From assembly GCF_002234405.1 (NCBI RefSeq), contig NZ_NMQT01000043.1, forward strand, positions 1 to 64,000: a stretch of 64,000 nt of DNA. The letters are read 5' to 3'. The position numbers were made by a program, and so were the translations under genes. This document shows, one piece after another, positions 10,179 through 63,920 of this stretch. This DNA is from Amycolatopsis thailandensis. Its GTDB lineage: Bacteria; Actinomycetota; Actinomycetes; Mycobacteriales; Pseudonocardiaceae. How positions within the stretch are numbered: position 1 is the stretch's first letter; every line of letters begins with the position of its first letter. The notes under the pieces are model-generated. The model was not told the DNA's origin. It saw only the letters and a list, made by a program, of their open reading frames with translations, and did no database searches.

Positions 10179-12044
10179 ATGGACAACACGTGGACGCTGA
10201 TGAACTCGGCGATGAAGTCGGCCGATGTTCCGAAGGGGCTGCACAAGGGCACGCTCCGCCGCGTCGCGAGGTTCGCCAGGCCGCACTGGCGAAGGTTGCT
10301 GATATTCCTGGTGCTCACCGTCGTGTCGGCGGTGCTGGCGGTGAGCACGCCGGTGCTGGCCGGGAAGGTGGTCGACGCGATCGTCGGCGGGCACGACGTC
10401 TCGCTGGTGGTGTGGCTGGCCGTGGTGATCGCGGCGCTGGCGCTGATCGACGCCGGGCTCGGGCTGGCGGAACGGGCCCAGTCGTCGAGGATCGGTGAGG
10501 GGATCATCCTCGACCTGCGGCTCGCGGTGTACCGGCACGTGCAGCGGATGCCGGTCGCGTTCTTCACCCGCACCCGAACCGGTGCCCTGGTGAGCAGGCT
10601 CAACAACGACGTCATCGGTGCGCAGCGCACCTTCACCGCCACACTGTCCGGTTTGGTCACCAACGTGATCCAGCTGGCGCTGTCGCTGGTGGTCATGGTG
10701 ACCCTGTCCTGGCAGGTCACCCTGCTCGCGCTGGTGCTGTTGCCGGTGTTCATCCTGCCGACGCGGCGGCTAGGGCGGCGGATGGCCGGGTTGCAGCGGG
10801 AGGCGGGCCAGCTCAACGCGGCGATGACCACGCAGATGACCGAACGGTTCTCCGCGCCGGGCGCGACGCTGGTGAAGCTCTTCGGCGACCCCGAGCGGGA
10901 AGCGGGCGACTTCGGCTCGCGGGCCGGGCGGGTGCGCGACATCGGGGTGCGGACGGCGATGCTGACGCGCTGGTTCCTGACCAGCCTGACCACGGTCTCC
11001 GCGCTCGCGCAGGCCCTGGTCTACGGCCTGGGCGGGTACCTCGCGCTGACCGGGGCGCTCGCGCCGGGCACCGTCGTGGCGCTGGCGTTGCTGCTGACCA
11101 GGCTGTACTCGCCGCTGACCGCGCTGGCGAACGTCCGGGTGGACGTGATGACCGCGCTGGTGTCGTTCGAGCGGGTCTTCGAGGTGCTCGACCTCAAGCC
11201 GATGATCGAAGAGAAGCAGGACCCGGATCGCGTTCCCGAAGGCCCGGTTTCGGTCGAATTCGCCGACGTCCGGTTCGGCTACCCCGCGGCGGACCGGTAC
11301 TCGCTGGCCTCGCTGGAGGACGTGTCCACTTTGGATCACCGGGGTGGTGAGGAGGTGTTGCACGGCATCAGCTTCCGGGCCGAACCCGGGCAGATGGTGG
11401 CGCTGGTCGGGTCTTCGGGCGCGGGGAAGTCGACGATCGCCTCACTGTTGCCGCGCCTCTACGACGTCGACGCGGGATCGGTCCGGTTGTCCGATGTGGA
11501 CGTCCGTGACCTGAGTTTCGCGTCGCTGCGGGAAACCGTCGGCGTGGTCACCCAGGACGGGCACCTCTTCCACGACACGATCCGGGCGAACCTCGAGTAC
11601 GCGCGGGCCGGAGTCACCGACGCCGAGATCTGGTCGGCGCTCGACCGCGCCCGGCTGGCCGAGCTGATCCGGGACCTGCCGGACGGGCTGGAGACCGTGG
11701 TGGGGGAGCGGGGCTACCGGCTCTCCGGCGGCGAACGACAGCGGCTGACCATCGCCCGGCTCCTGCTCGCGCAGCCGAAGGTCGTCATCCTCGACGAGGC
11801 GACCGCGCATCTGGACTCGCAGTCCGAGGCGGCCGTGGGCGAGGCGCTGACCGACGCGCTGGACGGACGGACCGCGCTGGTCATCGCGCACCGGCTGTCG
11901 ACGGTCCGGGCGGCGGACCAGATCCTGGTGATCGAACACGGGGAAATCGTCGAGCGGGGGACGCACGAGGAGCTCTTCGCCCGGGAGGGGCGCTACGCGA
12001 CGCTGTACCTGACGCAGTTCTCGGAGGAGCCGGCGGCGGCGTGA
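10179..12044 (+). CDS. ABC exporter, fused membrane and ATPase domains
   Basis: A 621-residue half-transporter of the ABCB/MsbA type, working as a dimer. Six transmembrane helices lie between about residues 40 and 330 (for example LLIFLVLTVVSAVLAVSTPVL). The ATPase domain has Walker A VGSSGAGKST (about 410), Q-loop VVTQDGHLF, signature LSGGERQRL and Walker B VVILDEATAHLD, followed by an H-loop IAHRLS. The ligand is unknown; lipids, peptides or drugs are typical. ATG start follows a purine-rich GGGGGCGAAGAGAGGG tract. It appears to be a single-gene unit, closed by the family B hairpin at 12075. Confidence 0.9.
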   Translation: MDNTWTLMNSAMKSADVPKGLHKGTLRRVARFARPHWRRLLIFLVLTVVSAVLAVSTPVLAGKVVDAIVGGHDVSLVVWLAVVIAALALIDAGLGLAERAQSSRIGEGIILDLRLAVYRHVQRMPVAFFTRTRTGALVSRLNNDVIGAQRTFTATLSGLVTNVIQLALSLVVMVTLSWQVTLLALVLLPVFILPTRRLGRRMAGLQREAGQLNAAMTTQMTERFSAPGATLVKLFGDPEREAGDFGSRAGRVRDIGVRTAMLTRWFLTSLTTVSALAQALVYGLGGYLALTGALAPGTVVALALLLTRLYSPLTALANVRVDVMTALVSFERVFEVLDLKPMIEEKQDPDRVPEGPVSVEFADVRFGYPAADRYSLASLEDVSTLDHRGGEEVLHGISFRAEPGQMVALVGSSGAGKSTIASLLPRLYDVDAGSVRLSDVDVRDLSFASLRETVGVVTQDGHLFHDTIRANLEYARAGVTDAEIWSALDRARLAELIRDLPDGLETVVGERGYRLSGGERQRLTIARLLLAQPKVVILDEATAHLDSQSEAAVGEALTDALDGRTALVIAHRLSTVRAADQILVIEHGEIVERGTHEELFAREGRYATLYLTQFSEEPAAA

Positions 12045-52510: not shown

Positions 52511-53779
52511 TTAGGCTGCGGCCGCAAGCTTCGGAACAAAAATCGTGTTCGTGGCTGCGCGTGCACGCCGGTGACTGGACGGTACCAAATGCGTGTAGAT
52601 CCTCAGTGTGTAACCAGGGTCGCTGTGCCCCAGGTACTCCGCGACCTCACGGATTGTGACGCCGTTTGCGAGCCAGGTGGAGGCGCAGAAGTGACGGAGG
52701 GCGTGCATCCCGTCACGGTTCTTGTTGATCTGGAAGCCTGCCGCGCCGAGCGCAGGCTTCCAGACAACCTGGGTGAACTTTCCTCCCCACCAGACGTTGC
52801 AGTTCCCCCACGACCGGGTGTTCATGTCGTCTTGTCGACGATCTATTAGGAGGTTGACCGTGATGGGGTCGCCGTCTGGATCTTCCCAGGGCAGTGTTAC
52901 GGCTTGTGGTTCGAACCGCTCCATGTATGCATCGAGTTCATCGAGGACGCCTTCGCCGATGGGAATCGTTCGAGTCTTTTTCCCCTTCGGAAGTGCGAAC
53001 ACTGGCGTACTTCCAATCCATTTGATCTGTCGCTCAATGTGCAGCTCCATCTCGTCTCGGTCGATGTCATCGGGGCTGAGGCCAAAGATTTCCATCTGTC
53101 GCAATGCTGCGCCTGCGCCCAGCGGGACGATGATCTTGTAACTTTCGGGCAGCGCTTCTTCGACGGCGTGAACCTTCCGTTCGGTCCATGGTCGAATTTT
53201 TGCTCGATCTTTCTGGGGGCGCTTGACGCTCTTTGCCTTGCAAGGATTGTCCGAAATTCGCTTATCGGCCTTTGCGGATTCTAGTATCGCGGATACAATA
53301 TCGAACAATCCTGCCCTATAAGATCCCTTCAGGCCCTCTTTCTTTAGCCAATCAAGCCAATCGCGGATGCGATCTGTGGATATTTCTTTCAGAGAGTATC
53401 TTCCTAAAATTGGGTAGATCCTCTTCTTCATGCGTCGGGTGAGCATTTGTTGGGTCGCGCCATCTTGCGACTGGCCCTTTTTCCAGATCTCGCCATACTC
53501 CAAGAGCGACATCTCGCCGGCCTTGATGTCGATGAAACGTCCTGCAAGGACATCGTGCTGCATGGCGATGAGGAAGTTATCCGCCTTCTCCTTCTCCTTG
53601 TCGGCGAAGGATTTTGATCGTTCTCTCCCGGTCGCATCGTAGTATCGGGCCTTGTAGCGAAGCCCCACCCCGTAGAGGTCTGTCTTCTCTCGGAGTGGTC
53701 GCTTGTTCTTTCCTAGAATCAGGTTTCCGTCGGAATCCTCGCGGTCGCGATACCAACGGTCTTGGACGTGTCCCTTCAT
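52511..53779 (-). CDS. int: Tyrosine site-specific integrase
   Basis: A 422-residue tyrosine recombinase. After an Arm-binding/core-binding N-terminal half, the catalytic domain has GAALRQMEIFGLSPDDI (first Arg about 240), a beta-hairpin Lys (KGKKTRTIPIG), HALRHFCASTWL (His and second Arg), GHSDPGYT and the nucleophile Tyr in RIYTHL. It carries out integration and, with the excisionase, excision of the element. ATG 53779 overlaps the excisionase stop (ATGA). The 3' end lies about 65 bases from the chromosomal junction, as expected for an attP-adjacent int. Confidence 0.93.
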   Translation of the reverse strand: MKGHVQDRWYRDREDSDGNLILGKNKRPLREKTDLYGVGLRYKARYYDATGRERSKSFADKEKEKADNFLIAMQHDVLAGRFIDIKAGEMSLLEYGEIWKKGQSQDGATQQMLTRRMKKRIYPILGRYSLKEISTDRIRDWLDWLKKEGLKGSYRAGLFDIVSAILESAKADKRISDNPCKAKSVKRPQKDRAKIRPWTERKVHAVEEALPESYKIIVPLGAGAALRQMEIFGLSPDDIDRDEMELHIERQIKWIGSTPVFALPKGKKTRTIPIGEGVLDELDAYMERFEPQAVTLPWEDPDGDPITVNLLIDRRQDDMNTRSWGNCNVWWGGKFTQVVWKPALGAAGFQINKNRDGMHALRHFCASTWLANGVTIREVAEYLGHSDPGYTLRIYTHLVPSSHRRARAATNTIFVPKLAAAA

Positions 53780-53991
53780 GTCCCCTTCGTCTCAGTCGCT
53801 GTGCTGTTTTTCTTCAGGTCGAGCCAGGTGTCGACCTCGCCTCTCTGGTAGCGGACGTGTCGTCCCATCCTTGTAAAGGGAGGTCCGGTCCCGCGTCTGC
53901 GCCATCTTGCCAATGTCTTGACAGGAATGCGGAGGTAATCGGATAGGTGTTCAGGAGACCACAGTGAATCCGGCTTGTCTGTCTCGGGCAT
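53776..53991 (-). CDS. xis: Excisionase-like helix-turn-helix protein
   Basis: A 71-residue MerR-type winged helix protein (LWSPEHLSDYLRIPVKTLARWRRRGTGPPFTRMGRHVRYQRGEVDTWL) of the kind that directs integrases to excise (Xis/AlpA-like). ATG 53991, with GGAG five bases upstream, is chosen over the in-frame start at 54090. It overlaps the integrase start, so both are made from one transcript running left. Its promoter lies in the operator-rich region 54000-54300. Confidence 0.8.
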   Translation of the reverse strand: MPETDKPDSLWSPEHLSDYLRIPVKTLARWRRRGTGPPFTRMGRHVRYQRGEVDTWLDLKKNSTATETKGT

Positions 53992-54213
53992 CGCCGCTCC
54001 GTAGTTCAGGGGTACTAGGATCGGAGGCGACCGCCTACGAGTCGTGTGGCGGTGCGCCTCTCCTTTGGGTGTGGGCCATGGCGATAGCAAGCATCCGCAG
54101 TTCGGTGTGACTCCTGCGCTGGAGGAGTGTCAGCTACGTGGATGGTGCTGGCTGTGCCGCGTTGTCGTGCAGTTGTCGCTCCTGGCGCATCCCCGGCTGC
54201 ACCAGTGCTGGTG

Positions 54214-54513: not shown

Positions 54514-56211
54514 TTGATAGCAGACGTCTCTGTACTCACGGGTAGTGGAGTGTGGGGGACAGGTTCGGACACCTGTGAACCCGAAAAGTTTGACGAGATT
54601 GCCTTCACCGGTCCGTACATCCTGATTGCGCACGACAACACGGCTGTCCGTTCGACGCCATCGCTTGAGATCGCACGTGAGTCTGTGACGCGCGACGTTA
54701 CGGTGGCTACGTTCGTGGGTACTCTCCGGAACTCGCTGCTAGCAGTTGATATCGACCCGACCGACACAGCGGCCGAACCCGAATCTGGCGAAGCGATCGC
54801 TGGGTTGATCGAGTTGTGGTGCGAGCGGCTAGGTCTCGCATGGATGAGGCGAGCATCGGGACGCCCAGGTCACCAGCATCTCGTAGTTCACGTACCAGAC
54901 AATCTCCGGAACGACTTCAGAGGCGTTGTTCGATCGCTCGCTCACCATCACTCGGTTTCGGCCACGGTCAGAACGACACTCCGTCCGCTCAGCGCACCTC
55001 ACCGATCTGGTATCAAGGCGACCGCTGTGTCGGGAAACTTGACTGCGATCGGCCTGGACGACCTCGAGCGTGCGCTGGGAACTGAGCCGGTCATCGTCGA
55101 AAAGGTACGTGAAGGCAAACCCCGAACCATGATCAGACGCCGTGCTTCTCCTGAACGTGCTCAGAGCCGATCTGAAATGGAGTTCGGGGAAACGCTTGCG
55201 CGGATCCGTGCAAGATGGACATCCAGCCAAGCTTGGGACGCTGCTCGTCAGCCAGGCACCAAAGCGGTGGAGATCGGCCTGATTGCTTGGCGCCGTTGGG
55301 TTTGGGCACCTGCGGTAACCACCGTGGACGCTGAACGACACGTCGATGTTTCAGTTGCTTGGAACAACTTTCGAACAGCGTCGCCAGAACAGGCCGCTCA
55401 TCTGGGTTACGACGGCTGGGTTCGCTCACGTTGGCAGCCAGCAGTGGAGGAAGCGCGATGCTCAAGGCCGCGGCGGACACGAACTGAGCGGGGGCCGGTT
55501 CGCAGCCGGCCGGGCGGCGGACAGCTTGCGCTTGCTCTTTTTGGAGAGTCGCGCGTAGAGGCGACGGCGGATCGGCTTGCCGAGGTGGCCTTGGCTGCCG
55601 CGTCGCTCACGGGGCGCTTGCTCGGTGGTGTTCGGGTGAAGACGCTATGCATCGCACTTCGAGTATTGGCGCGGGCGATTGTGGCCCGCGAAGGATCTAT
55701 ATCTGTTCGCGCGTGGTCCGAACAAGCAGGGCTCGATCCGAAGACAATTCGGCGTGCGCGTAACGCAGCGCAGGCTCTTGGCCTCATTGAGCAAACGCAT
55801 CGCTACGACGGCCAGGCCGAGGACTGCGACGCCTGGCTCCCAACTCCCGCGTTGAAAGTCGATCTTGATTGGATCGCCGCGCAGGCTGATTCCCCCACTG
55901 GGCGGTACGCCCCCTACCGCGGCGTGCAGGGGGACGCCAGTCGTGACCGCTTACGCAAGCAGCACGCCGCTGAGCGGTCGATGTGGCGAGCTCACCTTGA
56001 GACCAGGCAGCGACACTTCCGCCTTCTCTCCAGCTCAACCAGCAGGAAAGCGCATGCAGTTCTGCAGCAACAACGATGGTGGCGGTCGCTGTCAGCTTCA
56101 GACTGCGCCGCTCGGCGCGCCATCAGGCGGGAGAGGATAAAGGAGCTACCCGTCGACGCTCGTCATCGATGGGTAGCCTGGCTCGCGTTAAGGCGCGAAC
56201 TGGTGGCTTGA
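54514..56211 (+). CDS. Putative prim-pol-like replication protein
   Basis: A 565-residue protein I do not recognise with certainty. In the first third, LLAVDIDPTD (about 75-84) looks like the metal-binding DxD strand of archaeo-eukaryotic primase-polymerases, and GRPGHQHLVVHVP (about 115) like their later His block. The C-terminal half holds a winged helix (RAWSEQAGLDPKTIRRARNAAQALGLIE, about 408-435) and a basic tail. That arrangement and its place after int/xis fit RepPP-type replication initiators of actinomycete elements. The TTG start at 54514 with AAGGG six bases before is used; GTG at about 54550 is an alternative. Likely drives element replication after excision. Confidence 0.55.
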   Translation: MIADVSVLTGSGVWGTGSDTCEPEKFDEIAFTGPYILIAHDNTAVRSTPSLEIARESVTRDVTVATFVGTLRNSLLAVDIDPTDTAAEPESGEAIAGLIELWCERLGLAWMRRASGRPGHQHLVVHVPDNLRNDFRGVVRSLAHHHSVSATVRTTLRPLSAPHRSGIKATAVSGNLTAIGLDDLERALGTEPVIVEKVREGKPRTMIRRRASPERAQSRSEMEFGETLARIRARWTSSQAWDAARQPGTKAVEIGLIAWRRWVWAPAVTTVDAERHVDVSVAWNNFRTASPEQAAHLGYDGWVRSRWQPAVEEARCSRPRRTRTERGPVRSRPGGGQLALALFGESRVEATADRLAEVALAAASLTGRLLGGVRVKTLCIALRVLARAIVAREGSISVRAWSEQAGLDPKTIRRARNAAQALGLIEQTHRYDGQAEDCDAWLPTPALKVDLDWIAAQADSPTGRYAPYRGVQGDASRDRLRKQHAAERSMWRAHLETRQRHFRLLSSSTSRKAHAVLQQQRWWRSLSASDCAARRAIRRERIKELPVDARHRWVAWLALRRELVA

Positions 56212-56552: not shown

Positions 56553-57146
56553 GTGTTCATCGCAGTTCGTTGGCCGCCTCAGCTAGTAGTGGAGTGCGAC
56601 GTGCAGCCAGACCTAGACGTGTCTGACCCCTTTATGGAGGGCCTCGACATGCTCTTTGAGCACGTCAGGCATCCCGTCGAACTAGGGCGTGACGGCCGCC
56701 ACCGTAAGTGGAGAGCTACAGAACTCGCAGCAGCGCTGGGGGTCAGCGACGCCTATGTCTCAAAACTGCGCAAAGGCGGTGCCAACCCGCCGCTGGGTCT
56801 GATCCAAGGTATCGCGGCTTTTTTCGAGGTCTCCGGAGCTGTGCTGGTTGACAATGATCCTAGGCTGCGTGAGTACGTCAGGGCTCAATTGGACCTGTAC
56901 TCGGCCCTCATCGAACAGGATCTGCCGTTAGCTGAAGCGAAACAGCTTCTTCGAGCACCGAGTGCCGAGCCGCCCGCCCTGATAGCTCGGCTACTTGATA
57001 CACGTCAACGATACCTCGATGGCTCTGACGATTCAGGCATCGTACCGGTGGAACGCGAGCGGTCACCTTCAAGCGTCGGACCGGTCTTTCTTGAACCGTT
57101 GCCCGAAGGTGACGACGACTCGCCCGTCGGCGCAGACAAGGCCTAA
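56553..57146 (+). CDS. XRE-family helix-turn-helix regulator
   Basis: Up to 197 residues; the Cro/CI-type domain is RATELAAALGVSDAYVSKLRKGGANPPLGLIQGIAAFFEV (about 53-93). GTG 56553 is the first start; ATG 56650 has a better ribosome site (GGAGGG) and begins at the conserved MLFEHVRHPVELG block that precedes the domain in similar element regulators, so the true protein may be shorter. The C-terminal half is acidic and variable. Its gene is preceded by the shared 16-bp operator, and it is the best candidate to bind it. Confidence 0.8.
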   Translation: MFIAVRWPPQLVVECDVQPDLDVSDPFMEGLDMLFEHVRHPVELGRDGRHRKWRATELAAALGVSDAYVSKLRKGGANPPLGLIQGIAAFFEVSGAVLVDNDPRLREYVRAQLDLYSALIEQDLPLAEAKQLLRAPSAEPPALIARLLDTRQRYLDGSDDSGIVPVERERSPSSVGPVFLEPLPEGDDDSPVGADKA

Positions 57147-57886: not shown

Positions 57887-58678
57887 TTACGGCGCAGAGG
57901 GTGGTGGCCAGACAGCGGATTCGCCGCGGGGGAGAGGAGTTGGGCCAAGCCGTAGGCGGTCGCCGCTGACGGTGCGGGTCGTCACCTCGACTGGTCTGCC
58001 GTCGCGCAGCCTGGTGGTCGTGTGAACGTGGAGGACAGGGGATCCCGCCCGCACGTTCAGACAGTGAGCCTCGACTCGATTCGCGCGTTCCGCGCCAACA
58101 AGATTGGTCCACGTCAGCGGGCCGCCAAAAGACTCCTCGATCCGATCGAGCACACTGCCGGGTGCGGTAGTGGACTCGGCCAGAACTGGTAGTTGCGCGA
58201 CGATCCAGTTGGGGAGCGTGCTCGTCACAATCTGCATCGGATCGGGTTGTGTGCGGCCGGCTGAGCGATCTGCTGCCAATCCGAGGACCTGTTTCCTGCT
58301 CACAACCTCGTCGCCGAGTTTGAGGTCGAGCAGGTCTGCCATGGTTGTGCGGACGGGCGCCCTTCTGAGCTCAATCTCCCCCAACTGTTTCCAGGGGGTC
58401 GACTCGAAGACGTAGCCGGAAACGTCGCGTGAAACCATCGATGACCTGGGCAGATTCTCGCGTCGCTGATCGATCACGATCGTGCCCACGCGCTTCACGA
58501 CGCGCACAAGGCCTTCGTCCTGGAGATCGTTGTAGACATTCGTGATCAGCCATCGGCTTGTGTTCCATGTCGCCGCCAGGTCCTCAGCTGTAGGCAAGGT
58601 GGCTCCGGGAGGAAGCTCGCCGACCCCGATCGCCCGCCGCAGCTCATCGGCAACCGCTCGCCGGAGGTCACTTCCCAT
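57887..58678 (-). CDS. GntR/UTRA-family regulator of the transfer operon
   Basis: A 263-residue regulator: N-terminal winged helix (LRRAIGVGELPPGATLPTAEDLAATWNTSRWLITNVYNDLQDEGLV, about 13-57) and C-terminal UTRA ligand domain (about 85-255). The same type (KorSA in pSAM2) represses transfer genes in actinomycete elements. A palindrome pair (58733-58789) lies between it and the transfer operon, so it probably controls both. ATG 58678 is the start. Ligand unknown. Confidence 0.85.
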   Translation of the reverse strand: MGSDLRRAVADELRRAIGVGELPPGATLPTAEDLAATWNTSRWLITNVYNDLQDEGLVRVVKRVGTIVIDQRRENLPRSSMVSRDVSGYVFESTPWKQLGEIELRRAPVRTTMADLLDLKLGDEVVSRKQVLGLAADRSAGRTQPDPMQIVTSTLPNWIVAQLPVLAESTTAPGSVLDRIEESFGGPLTWTNLVGAERANRVEAHCLNVRAGSPVLHVHTTTRLRDGRPVEVTTRTVSGDRLRLGPTPLPRGESAVWPPPSAP

Positions 58679-58732
58679 CTCGACTACTCCTTAGGTGCCC
58701 GCCATGGACGTGACAGTGGCCCTCCGCACACG

Positions 58733-58789
58733 CTATGTGCAGCATATTGACTAAGCGAGACACTTTCGGACAGTATATGCTGCACATAG
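58733..58789. promoter_or_regulatory. Paired 14-bp operator CTATGTGCAGCATA, inverted
   Basis: CTATGTGCAGCATA (58733-58746) and its exact complement TATGCTGCACATAG (58776-58789) are 29 bases apart, in the divergent spacer between gntR and the transfer operon. The span includes AT-rich -10-like tracts in both directions. Fits a GntR-type repressor covering both promoters. Confidence 0.8.
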
Positions 58790-58822
58790 ACGTTGACAAT
58801 CACTCCTGTTGACGTTCGAGCA

Positions 58823-58856
58823 CCTCTGGCCTGGGGGCGCAACCCCAGGCCAGAGG
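58823..58856 (+). terminator. Perfect 14-bp hairpin in the transfer-operon leader
   Basis: CCTCTGGCCTGGGG and CCCCAGGCCAGAGG pair fully around GCGCAA. It lies 20 bases before the first small gene, so it sits in the 5' leader and could attenuate the operon or end stray transcripts. No T-run. Confidence 0.65.
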
Positions 58857-58875
58857 CATAGGAGACCGACACACG

Positions 58876-59064
58876 ATGAGGAGGACGGTCCCCGTGTTTG
58901 ACATGTTCTCAGTAGGCAAGCGGCCTGTGCACTGCGAGGTGCCGGTGGGTGCGGACCTGTACCGAACAGGGATACACCTGAGGGGACGGACACGCCTGAC
59001 CGGTCGCGTCGTCGACGCATCTCGGCAGCGCGTCCAGATTCCCCGCGGTGGTGAGATCCAGTGA
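58876..59064 (+). CDS. Small transfer-operon protein, function unknown
   Basis: A 62-residue frame. ATG 58876 opens RRTVPVFDMFSVG; GTG 58894 with AGGAGG nine bases before is an alternative start. The product ends VDASRQRVQIPRGGEIQ, a beta-rich mix with no clear motif. Its stop overlaps the next start (GTGA), which supports it being a real gene and first in the operon. Confidence 0.5.
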   Translation: MRRTVPVFDMFSVGKRPVHCEVPVGADLYRTGIHLRGRTRLTGRVVDASRQRVQIPRGGEIQ

Positions 59065-59429
59065 CGGCCACCGGTGTCCGTGAAGCGCTGGCGGTACTGC
59101 CGTCCTGGCGATGGGCGGGCTTCTATGTCCTCGCCTATCTGACCACCAGCCTGCTGCGCCTCACTGCCAAAGCAAGCGGTCCGATGATCGGAACAGCGAT
59201 CGGTTATGCGGTCGCCGGCCCCATAGGCGCCGTGGTAGGCCTGCTGATCGGTCAGGCAACTCACACAGGCCCCACCCTCACACACATCGCGAGTCTCCTC
59301 GACGACGGTGCCGATCGCCTCGGGCAGGCAGCAAACAGAATCACCGCGTCCGTCGCCGACGAGATCGCTAGGCAGCGCGACGAGTCGGCCAAGCGTGCGG
59401 CGGATCGCTACGCGGGGGTGTGCATCTGA
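59061..59429 (+). CDS. Small membrane protein of the transfer operon
   Basis: A 122-residue protein with two hydrophobic segments (WAGFYVLAYLTTSLL, about 18-32, and MIGTAIGYAVAGPIGAVVGLLIG, about 42-64) and an alpha-helical charged C-terminus (ADEIARQRDESAKRAADRY). Such short membrane proteins with Gly-rich helices occur among spread (Spd) functions of actinomycete plasmids. It may help plasmid spread between hyphae, but the family is not certain. Both ends overlap neighbours (GTGA and TGATG). Confidence 0.6.
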   Translation: MTATGVREALAVLPSWRWAGFYVLAYLTTSLLRLTAKASGPMIGTAIGYAVAGPIGAVVGLLIGQATHTGPTLTHIASLLDDGADRLGQAANRITASVADEIARQRDESAKRAADRYAGVCI

Positions 59430-61300
59430 TGGGCGTCCAGCACACCGATCGGATCGCCGCAGGTTCAGCACCGATCGCCGATCCCGACGACAACACCACC
59501 GATCTCCGTGGGCGTGCCGAGGCACGGGAGGAATCGGGCCCGATCGGCTACCGATCGAATGTCCTGATCGAGCCGATCGTCGATCGGTTCAAGATCTCAG
59601 TGCCTGCGTTGTGCACCGGCGACGATCGCATGACCGTCTGGCCCCGCCCCACAGTGCAGATCGACGGCGCCAACGTGCTCGAGGCAGTCCGGCTTGATGT
59701 GCGTGCCTGGCACGTTACCTACGCGGAGGAGGACGATCCGATCGGGGTCACACTCCCGGTCGTCTGCCGCAATCAGGATGCCGCCGCCCAGCTTGCGGCC
59801 GCGTTCTCACAACACCAACGCCAGGGGTATGCAGCACCCAACGAACCGGAAGAGCTCATGAAGTGGTGCGTGTGGTGGGTCTCGGAGAATCCCGCCGTTG
59901 ACCTCGTGCGCGATCGGACCGACGAGTGAAGCGGGCCAAGCGGGCAGTACACCGTGCCGTCGGCGTCGACGAGCCTCCGGCGCCGGCTTCGGTGATCGAA
60001 GGCCGTGTCGATGCCGAGATCCGCGCCGCCGACGCTGACCTGCAGCGCACGATCGCGGCCAAGAACGCCGATCTCGAGCTGAAGGAGAAGGAACGCCTCT
60101 CTCGCGAACTCGCCCATGATCGGCGAGTTCGGCGTGAGCAAAGGGCTGCTCGTCTCCGGAGGACGACGCGAAAGCGGCAGAGGGCTCTCAAGTGGCGTGC
60201 CTGGCGGGAACTGCGGGCGTCCCTGCGGCTGCAGTTCGAACAGGCTCTCGCCGGCCGGCTGATTTTACTGCTCGTCGCGATGGCCGCCGCAACTGCATGG
60301 TACGGCCAGTACCGATACCTGCACGAGGTCATGAACCTGGCGCATCCGTTTCCCGCAGCTGGGGCCACAGCTCTTGAGCTGCTGGGGCTCGGGATGTTCA
60401 GCATCGCCAGGAGCGCACGCCGCTACCGCGATCGAGCGATCCGCGCTCGGCTGGTCGGCTGGGCTGTGATCGGCTTCTCGGCGTTCAGTAACTGGGTGCA
60501 CAACGGTGTGCTTCTCGCCGCGCTGTCCGTTGCCGGGCCGGTCGCGTGGGAGATCCATGAATGGTGGCAGCAGCGGGTGGTACTGCACGACGACGGCAAG
60601 TTGCCCGTGCGACCGGTTCGGCCGCGGTTCCCGATCGATCAGGTCGTGCTGTTCCCGCTGTGGACCTACAGCGCGTACCGGATCGCGGTGCGGGATCGGA
60701 TCGAGGACGTCGGCCAGGCGCTGGCGATCGCTGCTCGGGAACGCGCGGCGCAGCGATGGCTGAACCGATCGACGAGGCGATCGTGGGCGAAGTCGGTTCG
60801 GCGGTCGATCGATCGGCACGAGGCGTCGATCGAACACAGGAGCGATCGGCTGGTCCGCCTGCCACTGGCGGACCGATCGGAGCCCGGCAGTATGTCGATC
60901 GAAGTCGTGCCGATCGACATCCGCCGGATCACCAATGATCGGCTGGCGGAGCGAGAACCCGGATCCAGTGACTGCCAGGTAGTCAAGACGCCTGCGAAGC
61001 CGAGGCGGCTTCGCAGGGTGTTCACGCGGACCGGTCGCCCGCGTGAACTGCGGTTGGGGCCCCTGATCGTGGATGAGATCGATTCGAACGATCACCAAGC
61101 CGCGACTGGCATCGCCACGGGACGGGCGACCGATCGGCCGGCGAGCCAACGTAAGCCAGGTCGTTTCCCAGCAGGGAAATCGGGACTAGACGTAGTGGGC
61201 AAGACGCTCGGCGACGGCGACCTCCAGGGCAACAGCGATGAGGGCAAGGAGTCGAGCGTGCGCAGTAGCCGATCACCGGATCAGTCGCACGATCGAACAC
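59190..61300. repeat. CGATCG-saturated block
   Basis: About 26 copies of the hexamer CGATCG counted by eye in 2.1 kb, against less than one expected at about 67% GC. They fall in all three reading frames (CGA-TCG, xCG-ATC-Gxx, xxC-GAT-CGx), so the selection acts on DNA rather than protein. Many are in pairs 10-40 bases apart. Confidence 0.75.
59429..59929 (+). CDS. Unknown soluble transfer-operon protein
   Basis: A 166-residue protein. ATG 59429 overlaps the previous stop as TGATG, with GGGGGTG seven bases before. Composition is acidic with many Asp-Arg and Pro-Ile pairs (VLIEPIVDRFKISVPA), partly dictated by dense CGATCG words in the DNA. No motif is recognised. The stop overlaps the next start (GTGA). 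Probably a transfer accessory protein. Confidence 0.55.
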   Translation: MGVQHTDRIAAGSAPIADPDDNTTDLRGRAEAREESGPIGYRSNVLIEPIVDRFKISVPALCTGDDRMTVWPRPTVQIDGANVLEAVRLDVRAWHVTYAEEDDPIGVTLPVVCRNQDAAAQLAAAFSQHQRQGYAAPNEPEELMKWCVWWVSENPAVDLVRDRTDE

Positions 61301-61506
61301 CTGACACCAGATCGTCGTACCGCACCTTGGAGCAACTCCGCGTCGAAGCGCACGCCCTAGTCGAACGCGAAGGATGGCTACCTCGAGACGTCAAGGCCAT
61401 CTGGCTCCAGAAACGCCTCCGATGCAGCCCGAACCGAGCCCGGATCCTGCGAAACGAGATCAACGCCTTACCCGATCAAACCCGGGACGTGGACAGCGAG
61501 GGATGA
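59926..61506 (+). CDS. DUF2637-type membrane protein of the transfer operon
   Basis: A 526-residue protein. Charged N-terminal coiled coil (about 30-100), then about four membrane helices (about 110-215, such as ILLLVAMAAATAWYGQYRYLHEV and GWAVIGFSAFSNWVHNGVLL), and a long basic, low-complexity C-terminus ending in a helix-turn-helix-like DVKAIWLQKRLRCSPNRARILRNEI. This is the DUF2637 type found next to FtsK-like genes in actinomycete elements. It may anchor or regulate the DNA translocase. GTG 59926 overlaps the previous stop. Confidence 0.7.
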   Translation: MKRAKRAVHRAVGVDEPPAPASVIEGRVDAEIRAADADLQRTIAAKNADLELKEKERLSRELAHDRRVRREQRAARLRRTTRKRQRALKWRAWRELRASLRLQFEQALAGRLILLLVAMAAATAWYGQYRYLHEVMNLAHPFPAAGATALELLGLGMFSIARSARRYRDRAIRARLVGWAVIGFSAFSNWVHNGVLLAALSVAGPVAWEIHEWWQQRVVLHDDGKLPVRPVRPRFPIDQVVLFPLWTYSAYRIAVRDRIEDVGQALAIAARERAAQRWLNRSTRRSWAKSVRRSIDRHEASIEHRSDRLVRLPLADRSEPGSMSIEVVPIDIRRITNDRLAEREPGSSDCQVVKTPAKPRRLRRVFTRTGRPRELRLGPLIVDEIDSNDHQAATGIATGRATDRPASQRKPGRFPAGKSGLDVVGKTLGDGDLQGNSDEGKESSVRSSRSPDQSHDRTPDTRSSYRTLEQLRVEAHALVEREGWLPRDVKAIWLQKRLRCSPNRARILRNEINALPDQTRDVDSEG

Positions 61507-61754
61507 CCTGCCGCTCGACAGGCCGACCGGCTGCCATGGACCGATGCGCGACGGACGGGATCCCTGGGCTGCTGCTCCGCGGGTCTGAGGTCGCGGAGGC
61601 AAGCACATCCAGCGACACACGATGCGGCGGGACCTGGCCGCCCCAGATAGCCGTCACTGCTGCCGACAGCAACAGGCCGGGTCCCGCCACACCGTGTCCC
61701 GGTGGCCGCGCTCCACCCCGGCCGCCCAGACCCGCCACGCCGAACCGAGGCACG
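61507..61754 (+). other. Spacer before the FtsK/TraB-like gene
   Basis: About 250 bases with no supported gene. The translocase frame is open through it from 61374, but codon use and lack of a ribosome site argue against coding. A Pro-rich stretch would result. I see no hairpin. Confidence 0.5.
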
Positions 61755-63920
61755 ATGAACGACAACGCAGGCCACCCGACAACGCCCCAGCGAGACACCT
61801 CCCGGCGGATTATCGTTCCCGCCGGCGGCGATGGTGCCTACGTTGAGCAGAACCCGCATCACACGCCGGGGCAGGAGATGTCCTCAGACGACAAGTCAGT
61901 GCCGTCCACGACTATCGCCGCCGGGGATGAGGACGGCTCGCGAAGTGCCACTCGGCCTCCTGCCGCCGCGCAGACCGAGCCGGGCCTGCGTCACCACATT
62001 GCGCGTCGTGTCGCCGCCATCGTGCGCACCCGGCGCGCGCAGCCAGGCGTTGAGGTCGCGCGAAAAGAAGAACGTCGCGCTCGTCGGCGCCGCCTCGCGC
62101 GTGCGGCGGTGAGGAACGCGAGCACGACCACGTGGTGGACCTTGCGCGGCGTTGGCATCACCGTGCGCGGACTCTGGCGAGCACTGTGGCAACCAGACAC
62201 CGTCGACGACATCAACGCCATGGTCGACGCCAATGTGCCGGACAAGGCCCATCGCGCCAGGATGAAGTTGCGGCGGGACCGCCGCAACGCGATCGCCTTC
62301 TGTCTCATCGTCGTCGCCGCCGCGTACTTCGCCGTCAAATACTGGGGGGCCGAGCTGTGGCTCGCGACCCCGTCGTGGGTGCTCGTCACCATCGTGGCGA
62401 TCACGGTGCCGCTGCTGACCTTCGTCGGTCGCCCTCAGCGCGAGGACCGGGACGAGACCGAGGCCCCGCACGGCATGCCTCGGGGACTCGCACTCAGCGA
62501 CTCGGCGCGGGGAGTTGCCCGCACACTCAGCGAGGCGTTCGTCAACAGCAAGATCCGTGCCGAGGTCAGCGAAGGCGGTATCCGCGCCGAGCCCGGCGGT
62601 TGGGGATGGACAGTCACGCTGCAACTTCTCGACGGGATCACCGAGCCGAAACTCGAGGCACTCGAGCGGCATCTCAACACGCCGGCAGGAGGCCTCGTCT
62701 TCTCCCGCGTTCCGCAAGCCGCTCGGGTCATGGTGCTGCGCATCGTCATGAAGGATCTCCTCACCGACCCCATCGACGCACCGGAGCGCGCGTTCGGCTC
62801 GGTACGCGACCACGTCGCGATCGCTACCCGCTTCGATGGCGGTCGCCTGAGCCTCGAGCTGTTCGCGCGGCACGTCCTGATCATCGGACGCACCGGCTCC
62901 GGTAAGTCCGGAGTACTTCACGGCTTCCTCGACGCCTTGACCGCAGACCAAGACGTCGACATCGTCGGGATCGATCTCAGCGATGGCCCAGACCTCAAAT
63001 CCTGGAAAGCCTCGATGCGCGACCACGCGTTCGGGCCGAACATCGACAAAGCCGAGAAGATTCTCGCCGCCGCGGTCAGGCTGGTCCGGCACAACACCGC
63101 TAACCTCGGCTCCCGCAACTTCGCCCCCGCCGTCGACGGCCCCGGTCACGTTGTCGTCATCGACGAATACGGGATGGTCGCGGCGATCGACACCTTGAGA
63201 GTCCTCGTCGAGTTCATCGTGACCTACGGGGCCAAAGCAGGAGTGTGGGTCGTCCTGGCCAACCAGCGCGCCGTCAACGACATGATGGGCACCTCGCGCC
63301 TTGCGAGTCAGGTCCACATCAAGGTGTTCCTGGGCATGTCCGCCGAAGACGCGCAAGGCTTGCCCAAACACCTCCGCGAGCTCGGCGTCCGACCGCACCT
63401 GTTCCGGCAGGCCACGCAAACCTCACCTCATGACGCGGGCAAGGCGTTCGTCGTCGACGTCGAAACCATCCCGATCCTCGTGCGGTTCTACCGACTCGGG
63501 CGCCTGGCAGCCGTACGACGTGCCAGCGAAAGGGCGCCGTATCGCCCACACCTCGATGCTGCGCGCACCGAGATCCTCGATGCGGATGAGCATGACGGGA
63601 CGGCCGCGCTTCTGCTGGCGGTCCGCTCGGCCATCCTCGCGATCTCCAGCTCGGAGGGACGCCGCCCGGAACGGGCATCGGGGGAGGAGCTACTCCCTCG
63701 CCTGCGGCAACGAGGATTCGCCGTCGACAAGAAGAACCTGCTTGGCGAGCTCCGCAGTGCCTCCCGCGGCCTGATCGACCGAAGCCGGGATACCAACCTT
63801 GCCCCAGGTAAGAACCCCAAGGGCTTCTACCTGGAAGACCTGGACCACGCAATCGCCGCGATCGAGCAAGAAGCAACCCGCGCGCCGACCGACAACCCCG
63901 GCCCACCGGGAGCACGATGA
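61755..63920 (+). CDS. FtsK/TraB-like DNA translocase
   Basis: A 721-residue protein starting at ATG 61755 (GAGG four bases before); longer in-frame starts are less likely. A variable N-terminus is followed by two membrane helices (IAFCLIVVAAAYFAV and WVLVTIVAITVPLLTFV, about 180-225). The motor has Walker A GRTGSGKSG (about 378), Walker B HVVVIDEYGM (about 465) and LANQRAVNDMMG. The C-terminal winged helix (LLPRLRQRGFAVDKKNLLGELRSAS, about 645-670) is the place where TraB and FtsK read 8-bp DNA sequences. In actinomycetes such a protein alone moves double-stranded DNA into the recipient. It is ATGA-coupled to the next gene. Confidence 0.88.
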   Translation: MNDNAGHPTTPQRDTSRRIIVPAGGDGAYVEQNPHHTPGQEMSSDDKSVPSTTIAAGDEDGSRSATRPPAAAQTEPGLRHHIARRVAAIVRTRRAQPGVEVARKEERRARRRRLARAAVRNASTTTWWTLRGVGITVRGLWRALWQPDTVDDINAMVDANVPDKAHRARMKLRRDRRNAIAFCLIVVAAAYFAVKYWGAELWLATPSWVLVTIVAITVPLLTFVGRPQREDRDETEAPHGMPRGLALSDSARGVARTLSEAFVNSKIRAEVSEGGIRAEPGGWGWTVTLQLLDGITEPKLEALERHLNTPAGGLVFSRVPQAARVMVLRIVMKDLLTDPIDAPERAFGSVRDHVAIATRFDGGRLSLELFARHVLIIGRTGSGKSGVLHGFLDALTADQDVDIVGIDLSDGPDLKSWKASMRDHAFGPNIDKAEKILAAAVRLVRHNTANLGSRNFAPAVDGPGHVVVIDEYGMVAAIDTLRVLVEFIVTYGAKAGVWVVLANQRAVNDMMGTSRLASQVHIKVFLGMSAEDAQGLPKHLRELGVRPHLFRQATQTSPHDAGKAFVVDVETIPILVRFYRLGRLAAVRRASERAPYRPHLDAARTEILDADEHDGTAALLLAVRSAILAISSSEGRRPERASGEELLPRLRQRGFAVDKKNLLGELRSASRGLIDRSRDTNLAPGKNPKGFYLEDLDHAIAAIEQEATRAPTDNPGPPGAR

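Follow-up and report, generated by a model that had tools for sequence, protein, structure and literature searches.

Twenty-six copies of the hexamer CGATCG are packed into positions 59190 to 61300 of the window (the whole stretch of 64,000 nucleotides that was analysed), and the most economical reading of this array is that it is recognized by the small helix-turn-helix (HTH) domain of a membrane protein encoded by the array DNA itself, so that a protein with a flexible tether could hold the element that carries its gene. This reading draws on the array itself, on its persistence in a divergent homologue, on the way in which word and HTH type occur together across different elements, and on an HTH fold predicted for the C-terminal end of the protein, a member of the DUF2637 family. 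That the words form a binding array within the gene of their own membrane-anchored HTH reader is an evenly balanced proposition, in which the HTH would bind the word, the hydrophobic part of the protein would lie in the membrane, and the outcome would be anchoring or transfer and not partition or autoregulation.

The window belongs to a 9.35-Mb assembly, and the element that starts at 52.5 kb is, to judge from its genes, AICE-like: an integrase, an excisionase and an FtsK-type transfer gene occur together, the FtsK_SpoIIIE score of the last being just below the cut-off. The tyrosine integrase (Pfam; 52511..53779, minus strand) lies at the end of the element facing the core. Beyond it are an excisionase-like HTH_17 protein (Pfam/NCBIfam; 53776..54090, minus strand), an ORF of 565 aa with no Pfam or NCBIfam match (54514..56211, plus strand), whose position suggests a replication protein, an HTH_3 (XRE-like) regulator (Pfam; 56553..57146, plus strand) and a GntR/UTRA regulator (Pfam; 57887..58678, minus strand). 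The gntR gene has three copies of CGATCG in 0.8 kb, and the gap between it and the next gene (58679-59060) has none, despite adjoining the array. The array itself runs through three genes on the plus strand: gene 1 (122 aa; 59061..59429; no Pfam or NCBIfam match above cut-off), gene 2 (166 aa; 59429..59929; no Pfam or NCBIfam match) and the DUF2637 gene (526 aa; 59926..61506; PF10935 at 29.2 bits, cut-off 22.8). An ORF for an FtsK/TraB-like ATPase (61374..63920, plus strand; Pfam FtsK_SpoIIIE at 22.1 bits, cut-off 24) follows, and its real start may be further in.

The initial annotation had estimated about 26 copies by eye, and direct counting gave exactly this number, with start positions spanning 59197-61290. 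The words are densest from about 59440 to 60911, with outlying copies to 61290. Gene 1 has two copies (5.4 per kb), gene 2 has nine and the highest density (18.0 per kb), and the DUF2637 gene has 15, mainly in its second half (9.5 per kb), compared with densities of 1.7 in ftsK and 1.2 over the first 50 kb. GATC, too, is more frequent here: the two kilobases at the centre of the array have 24 and 26 copies, and the first 50 kb averages 8.7 per kb. Sliding segments of 2111 bp over the flanking 52 kb (998, overlapping) had 2.5 copies of CGATCG on average and never more than eight, so the rough expectation of less than one copy in the initial annotation was too low. The words have no preferred orientation in the window (CCGATC 16, GATCGG 15).

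Codon usage does not account for this density in the two richest genes. When synonymous codons were permuted within each gene (n=500, with the start of gene 2 set at 59420), the nine copies in gene 2 compared with a mean of 3.2 and a maximum of 7, and the 15 in the DUF2637 gene with a mean of 6.4 and a maximum of 12. With synonymous codons drawn instead from a usage table for 21 host core ORFs (n=2000), the corresponding values were 2.8 (maximum 6) and 4.5 (maximum 10). The codon-preserving shuffle that had been proposed as a check therefore upholds the array in these two genes but not in gene 1, where two copies were not significant against either the within-gene null (mean 1.0, maximum 3) or the host-codon null (1.2, maximum 4). 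All three reading phases are used, in agreement with the earlier claim, the copies dividing 1/4/4 in gene 2 and 3/7/5 in the DUF2637 gene. A stricter family-wise scan of all 6-mers in the window DUF2637 gene alone was not significant (p=0.13); it used within-gene shuffles, a null that is raised by dense arrays themselves, since these shape the codon table on which it draws.

The DUF2637 protein of the window appears to consist of an N-terminal hydrophobic part, presumably in the membrane, a long disordered linker and a C-terminal HTH. In an AlphaFold2 prediction from three sequences, the C-terminal motif forms a three-helix domain with a pLDDT of about 90 (residues 468-513; 61327..61464, plus strand), which is the proposed reader of the word, and this lies behind a linker predicted to be disordered, with a pLDDT below 50 (residues 311-465; 60856..61320, plus strand). 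Elsewhere the same model, membrane part included, is mostly poor (mean pLDDT 55.8). A C-terminal piece of 72 residues modelled alone gave the same three helices. None of the HTH pieces reached the Pfam cut-off, searches of the PDB with a sequence profile and with the single sequence gave nothing convincing, and Foldseek with the HTH model returned nothing at E 0.001 or better. Its weak matches include FtsK gamma structures (aligned over 44 columns with an rmsd of 1.7-1.9; E about 5-7, not significant), and the modelled resemblance to the FtsK gamma fold is a weak lead towards the idea of a split FtsK.

In an Amycolatopsis keratiniphila element (L013), whose DUF2637 and FtsK proteins are 43% and 55% identical to those of the window, the DUF2637 gene has 16 copies of CGATCG and 31 of CCGATC/GATCGG, with a cluster at L013:9921-10726 and a skewed orientation (CCGATC 22, GATCGG 9). 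Thus, where the initial annotation had asked whether homologous operons keep the proteins and lose the words, this one keeps both. The most extreme array seen is on a Saccharopolyspora pogona plasmid (L257, NZ_CP031143.1), the decisive one of three records examined from plasmid searches that gave 35, 5 and 1 records. Its DUF2637 gene (L257:7764-9581) has 46 copies of CGATCG in 1.8 kb and 88 of GATCGA/TCGATC, nearly equal on the two strands (GATCGA 43, TCGATC 45), and of its protein, the membrane part (38%) and the HTH (41%) are all that aligns with that of the window. A 1.5-kb gene of a further element (L014, genome G063) has nine copies, and hydrophobic segments precede the HTH motif of its product. 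The window, L013, L257 and L014 proteins have in common a C-terminal motif of the type L(R/K)CSPxRA. PF10935 scores above its gathering threshold in the window, L013, L257 and L050 but not in L014, so that Pfam gives no support for the L014 gene as a DUF2637 gene. The neighbouring ATPase in L014 (11250-13538) is above the cut-off for Pfam Zot, an ATPase family name, and not for FtsK.

The next closest FtsK, 40% identical to that of the window, is in Pseudonocardiaceae bacterium YIM PH 21723 (L050), where the gene order is similar (GntR-like, small genes, DUF2637, FtsK) and the word is different: 30 copies of CGGCCAGC in about 610 bases, in three phases and with an orientation of 30:2. The array lies inside the DUF2637 gene in L013, L050 and L257, and all reading phases are in use in the window, L050 and L257-type genes. 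The ATPases beside the CGATCG genes of L014 and L257 match the window FtsK in the ATPase core only, and what these elements have in common with the window is the word and the C-terminal HTH; this favours the HTH as the reader.

If the HTH is the reader, then other genes with the window-type HTH (type A) should be rich in the same word, and it was set down beforehand that further DUF2637 genes of this type would have at least five copies of CGATCG each. A search with the 63-residue HTH of L257 gave 29 rows, of which four duplicated L257, L013, the window and L316 and were set aside. The 25 new genes have 129 copies in total, compared with a shuffle mean of 68.3 and a maximum of 88 in 200 shuffles, and 4.4 per kb compared with 0.93 in control regions. 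In the same genes, CGAGAC, CRCCAG and CCGGAA were not raised above shuffles, and CGGCCAG was slightly so (45, maximum 44). The per-gene threshold fell short, being reached by 13 of the 25 genes and by two of 144 DUF2637 genes with other HTHs. With a threshold of three copies, picked after the fact, the proportions are 21/25 and 7/144, a few of the 144 control ORFs possibly being misframed, and thinning to below 70% identity leaves 13/17 and 3/64 (Fisher 3e-9). Off-frame copies in the 17 thinned representatives are in borderline excess (16 compared with 8.6, maximum 17), so much of the type A signal rides on Asp-Arg dipeptides.

Only three of the 25 genes (L302, L304 and L310) are DUF2637 genes by Pfam, and the other 22 belong to a CGATCG-rich set all the same; the word therefore tracks the HTH more than the DUF2637 domain. 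Every one of the 25 has at least four stretches above the hydrophobicity threshold, some of them overlapping, and the HTH motif varies among them (CGPQRA, CAPKYA, CSAARA). The six genes that are DUF2637 by Pfam and have the window-type HTH (the window, L013, L257, L302, L304 and L310) have eight to 46 copies each. L310 (G209 contig 147), the only one of the 25 loci examined for mobile-element genes, lies directly upstream of an FtsK-like match.

Other HTH types go with other words. PF10935 matches are present in 55 of 80 genus genomes; of 106 listed matches, 90 were mapped and 16 left out, L050 and L014 were added, and the set was grouped by C-terminal HTH. Genes shorter than 300 bases were dropped from the family-wise scan and those below 150 aa from the HTH-type tables, and because early scans had flagged words in controls too (L098, L103, L114, L096, L097), later ones added a phase filter and codon shuffles. 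The favoured words are CRCCAG for type B, CGAGAC for type C, CGGCCAGC for L050 and CCGGAA for type E. Type B genes L146, L148, L185, L200 and L228 have 16 to 35 copies of CRCCAG/CTGGYG per gene, but the association holds in part: seven of 13 genes have at least 11 copies, whilst six with very similar recognition helices have two to five, and by eye these helices do not sort array genes from arrayless ones. Among type D genes, one of four has an array, that of L050. In L250 (G373 contig 1), a DUF2637 gene with an RWGR-type HTH has, together with 300 further bases, 18 copies of CCGGAA/TTCCGG. The DUF2637 genes L231-L233 and L239 (type G) are enriched in CGTTCA and type F genes in CGAACC, the genes of these two types being too closely related to be independent. 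The correspondence is also imperfect in that some words are high in rows other than their own: CRCCAG is 2.1x in type F, CGAGAC 2.0x in type G, CGATCG 2.5x in type H (4 vs 1.6) and CGTTCA 4.1x in type I.

The type C association was checked against an expectation set down in advance of retrieving 40 loci from other genera, namely that CGAGAC would be present in their type C genes but not in the rest. The type C genes as a whole, defined by an NYGR motif (n=71), have 275 copies of CGAGAC/GTCTCG, compared with 127.5 expected. Under the pattern first used, type C comprised 20 genes from the other genera, with 115 copies of CGAGAC compared with a shuffle mean of 55 and a maximum of 67 in 200. In that form the control failed, since 20 non-C genes had 41 compared with 26.6 (maximum 36). 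After NYGR genes missed by the pattern had been moved, 23 type C genes had 130 against 60.7 (maximum 76 of 300), and the 17 other genes had 26 against 21.2 (maximum 32), within the null range. Many type C genes are close kin, and the four new ones that survive thinning with the earlier set have 16 copies compared with 5.2 (maximum 10).

Of the rival explanations, the one that survives best treats the words as the TRS-like sites of a clt locus, for which the neighbouring FtsK/TraB-like translocase would be the reader through its C-terminus, in the manner of Streptomyces plasmids. The array is directly upstream of the FtsK gene, L013 with its 55%-identical FtsK keeps both the word and its place, the arrays of L050 and L060 adjoin FtsK genes as well, and the FtsKs next to the type B arrays of L148 and L200 have C-terminal winged-helix matches. 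In L200 the words also run past the DUF2637 gene into the next gene, and FtsK might be a second reader. However, CGATCG recurs beside ATPases that are alike in the core only, and an FtsK 40% identical to that of the window adjoins a different word. In L146, L185 and L176 there are strong arrays of another word, and searches of the 12-kb locus with phmmer (five queries) and of selected ORFs with Pfam gave no FtsK. Of 40 FtsK-centred loci scanned, few besides L050 and L060 exceed control regions, and the window FtsK has no winged helix by Pfam. A role for FtsK as the reader thus seems unlikely, and of the initial annotation's proposal that these are recognition words, it is the part concerning a DNA-reading domain that appears to stand, as far as the pattern of words can indicate, and the part concerning the adjacent FtsK/TraB that is disfavoured.

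The FtsK-centred loci contain repeats of other kinds. In L060, ten copies of GGTCTCCT lie in one orientation just downstream of the FtsK gene (10240-10890), and a compact repeat of GAGTCGCCG- or AGGACGGCGACTCGC-like units is at 1475-1670; the gene upstream of this FtsK has a possible C-terminal HTH, with no support from Pfam as a DUF2637 gene. GGTAGCG/CCGCTAC occurs in both orientations in L086 (5930-7010) and L087 (6598-6838), from two genomes of one genus.

It is improbable that the array is a partition or replication locus, with iterons or a centromere read by another protein of the element, such as the XRE or GntR regulator or the product of the 565-aa ORF. Loci of this kind commonly contain short repeated words and three regulators are close by, with the word present in the gntR gene, and SpdA2-sps is reported to influence plasmid stability (PMC4170104). 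However, across elements the word co-occurs with the HTH type of the array-bearing gene, and the array is placed within the DUF2637 gene in L013, L050 and L257. Quite improbable, too, is functionless drift of codons, peptides or repeat expansions in a disordered linker. Most words do sit in the linker part of genes, the window gene by itself is not significant in the family-wise scan, dense arrays lift their own codon null, and the type A signal is largely in one phase. Against this, two genes exceed the host-codon null, all phases are used in the window, L050 and L257-type genes, and the word changes along with the HTH type. A host mark, in the form of a methylation site, as the initial annotation had suggested, or of sites for the nucleoid protein Gbn, which binds GATC with the consensus GATCWT and has orthologues reported in Amycolatopsis (PMC9239103), is most implausible despite the GATC core of the word, since GATCWT matches only three times compared with 55 GATC in the array, a search of the host assembly for methyltransferases of the D12/Dam class found none, and other elements use other words.

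If it is a binding array within the gene of its own HTH reader, the array is probably a clt-like tether. The small C-terminal HTH of the membrane protein, DUF2637 in this case, would read words in the DNA that encodes it; after excision, many DUF2637 molecules in the membrane would hold the circular element through its CGATCG words; and this anchor would hand the DNA over to the adjacent FtsK/TraB motor, to be transferred or spread. Against such a reader, shared descent of gene and HTH could tie the word to the HTH without any binding, and in the window CGATCG also fills gene 2, beyond the DUF2637 gene. A wider proposal, doubtful but possible, is that actinobacterial mobile elements have a family of membrane-tethered readers (DUF2637 and similar proteins with a C-terminal HTH) that use their own genes as docking sites, with one word per HTH type, and act as the detached anchor-plus-reader half of an FtsK; transfer specificity would then reside in a self-addressed gene and not in the motor. 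A literature search of titles and the openings of abstracts, with subscription papers outside its scope, found no such arrays described, the term DUF2637 occurs in a single paper of the collection covered, and the TraB/Spd complex is said in a review to be still awaiting study (PMC12857230). If such membrane proteins do read words in their own genes, the reader and its address would travel together in each element, a domain whose function is unknown would acquire a role open to testing, and an element's word would become predictable from sequence. The question bears on how elements of the FtsK/TraB type pick the DNA that they move, and on the role of accessory membrane proteins.

Among known systems, cyanobacterial HIP1 is an octamer containing CGATCG that is found over whole genomes. 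The initial annotation had brought it up here, but the octamer, GCGATCGC, occurs just once in the array and 13 times in the window. KOPS are polar in orientation and spread genome-wide, whereas CGATCG is a palindrome confined to one operon; the lack of KOPS polarity that had been pointed out is true of the window and L257, with their balanced orientations, but not of the skewed arrays of L013 (22/9) and L050 (30:2). A likeness to FtsK gamma is confined to its place among the weak, non-significant Foldseek matches of the HTH model. In phage lambda, the origin lies in the O gene, so that the binding repeats are encoded in the gene of the binder; O is a replication initiator with a few iterons, whereas the array here belongs to a membrane protein with dozens of words. 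The clt/TRS loci reported to be bound by TraB on the Streptomyces plasmids pSVH1, pJV1, pIJ101 and pWTY27 resemble the present case in having short repeated words near an FtsK-like transfer gene, with a word that varies by plasmid (PMC3583192, PMC4170104). These loci are described as about 50-175 bp, whereas the window array occupies about 2 kb of coding sequence, and although the window does have multiple short repeats beside a TraB/FtsK-like gene, its word does not follow the TraB/FtsK protein but co-occurs with the HTH type of another. SpdA2/sps of pIJ101, as described, differs in having two or three copies of one conserved 12-bp palindrome, CGTCACGTGACG, of which there are no copies in the window (PMC4170104). 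By that description, however, SpdA2 is alike in being a plasmid DNA-binding protein with palindromic sites within its own gene (PMC4170104).
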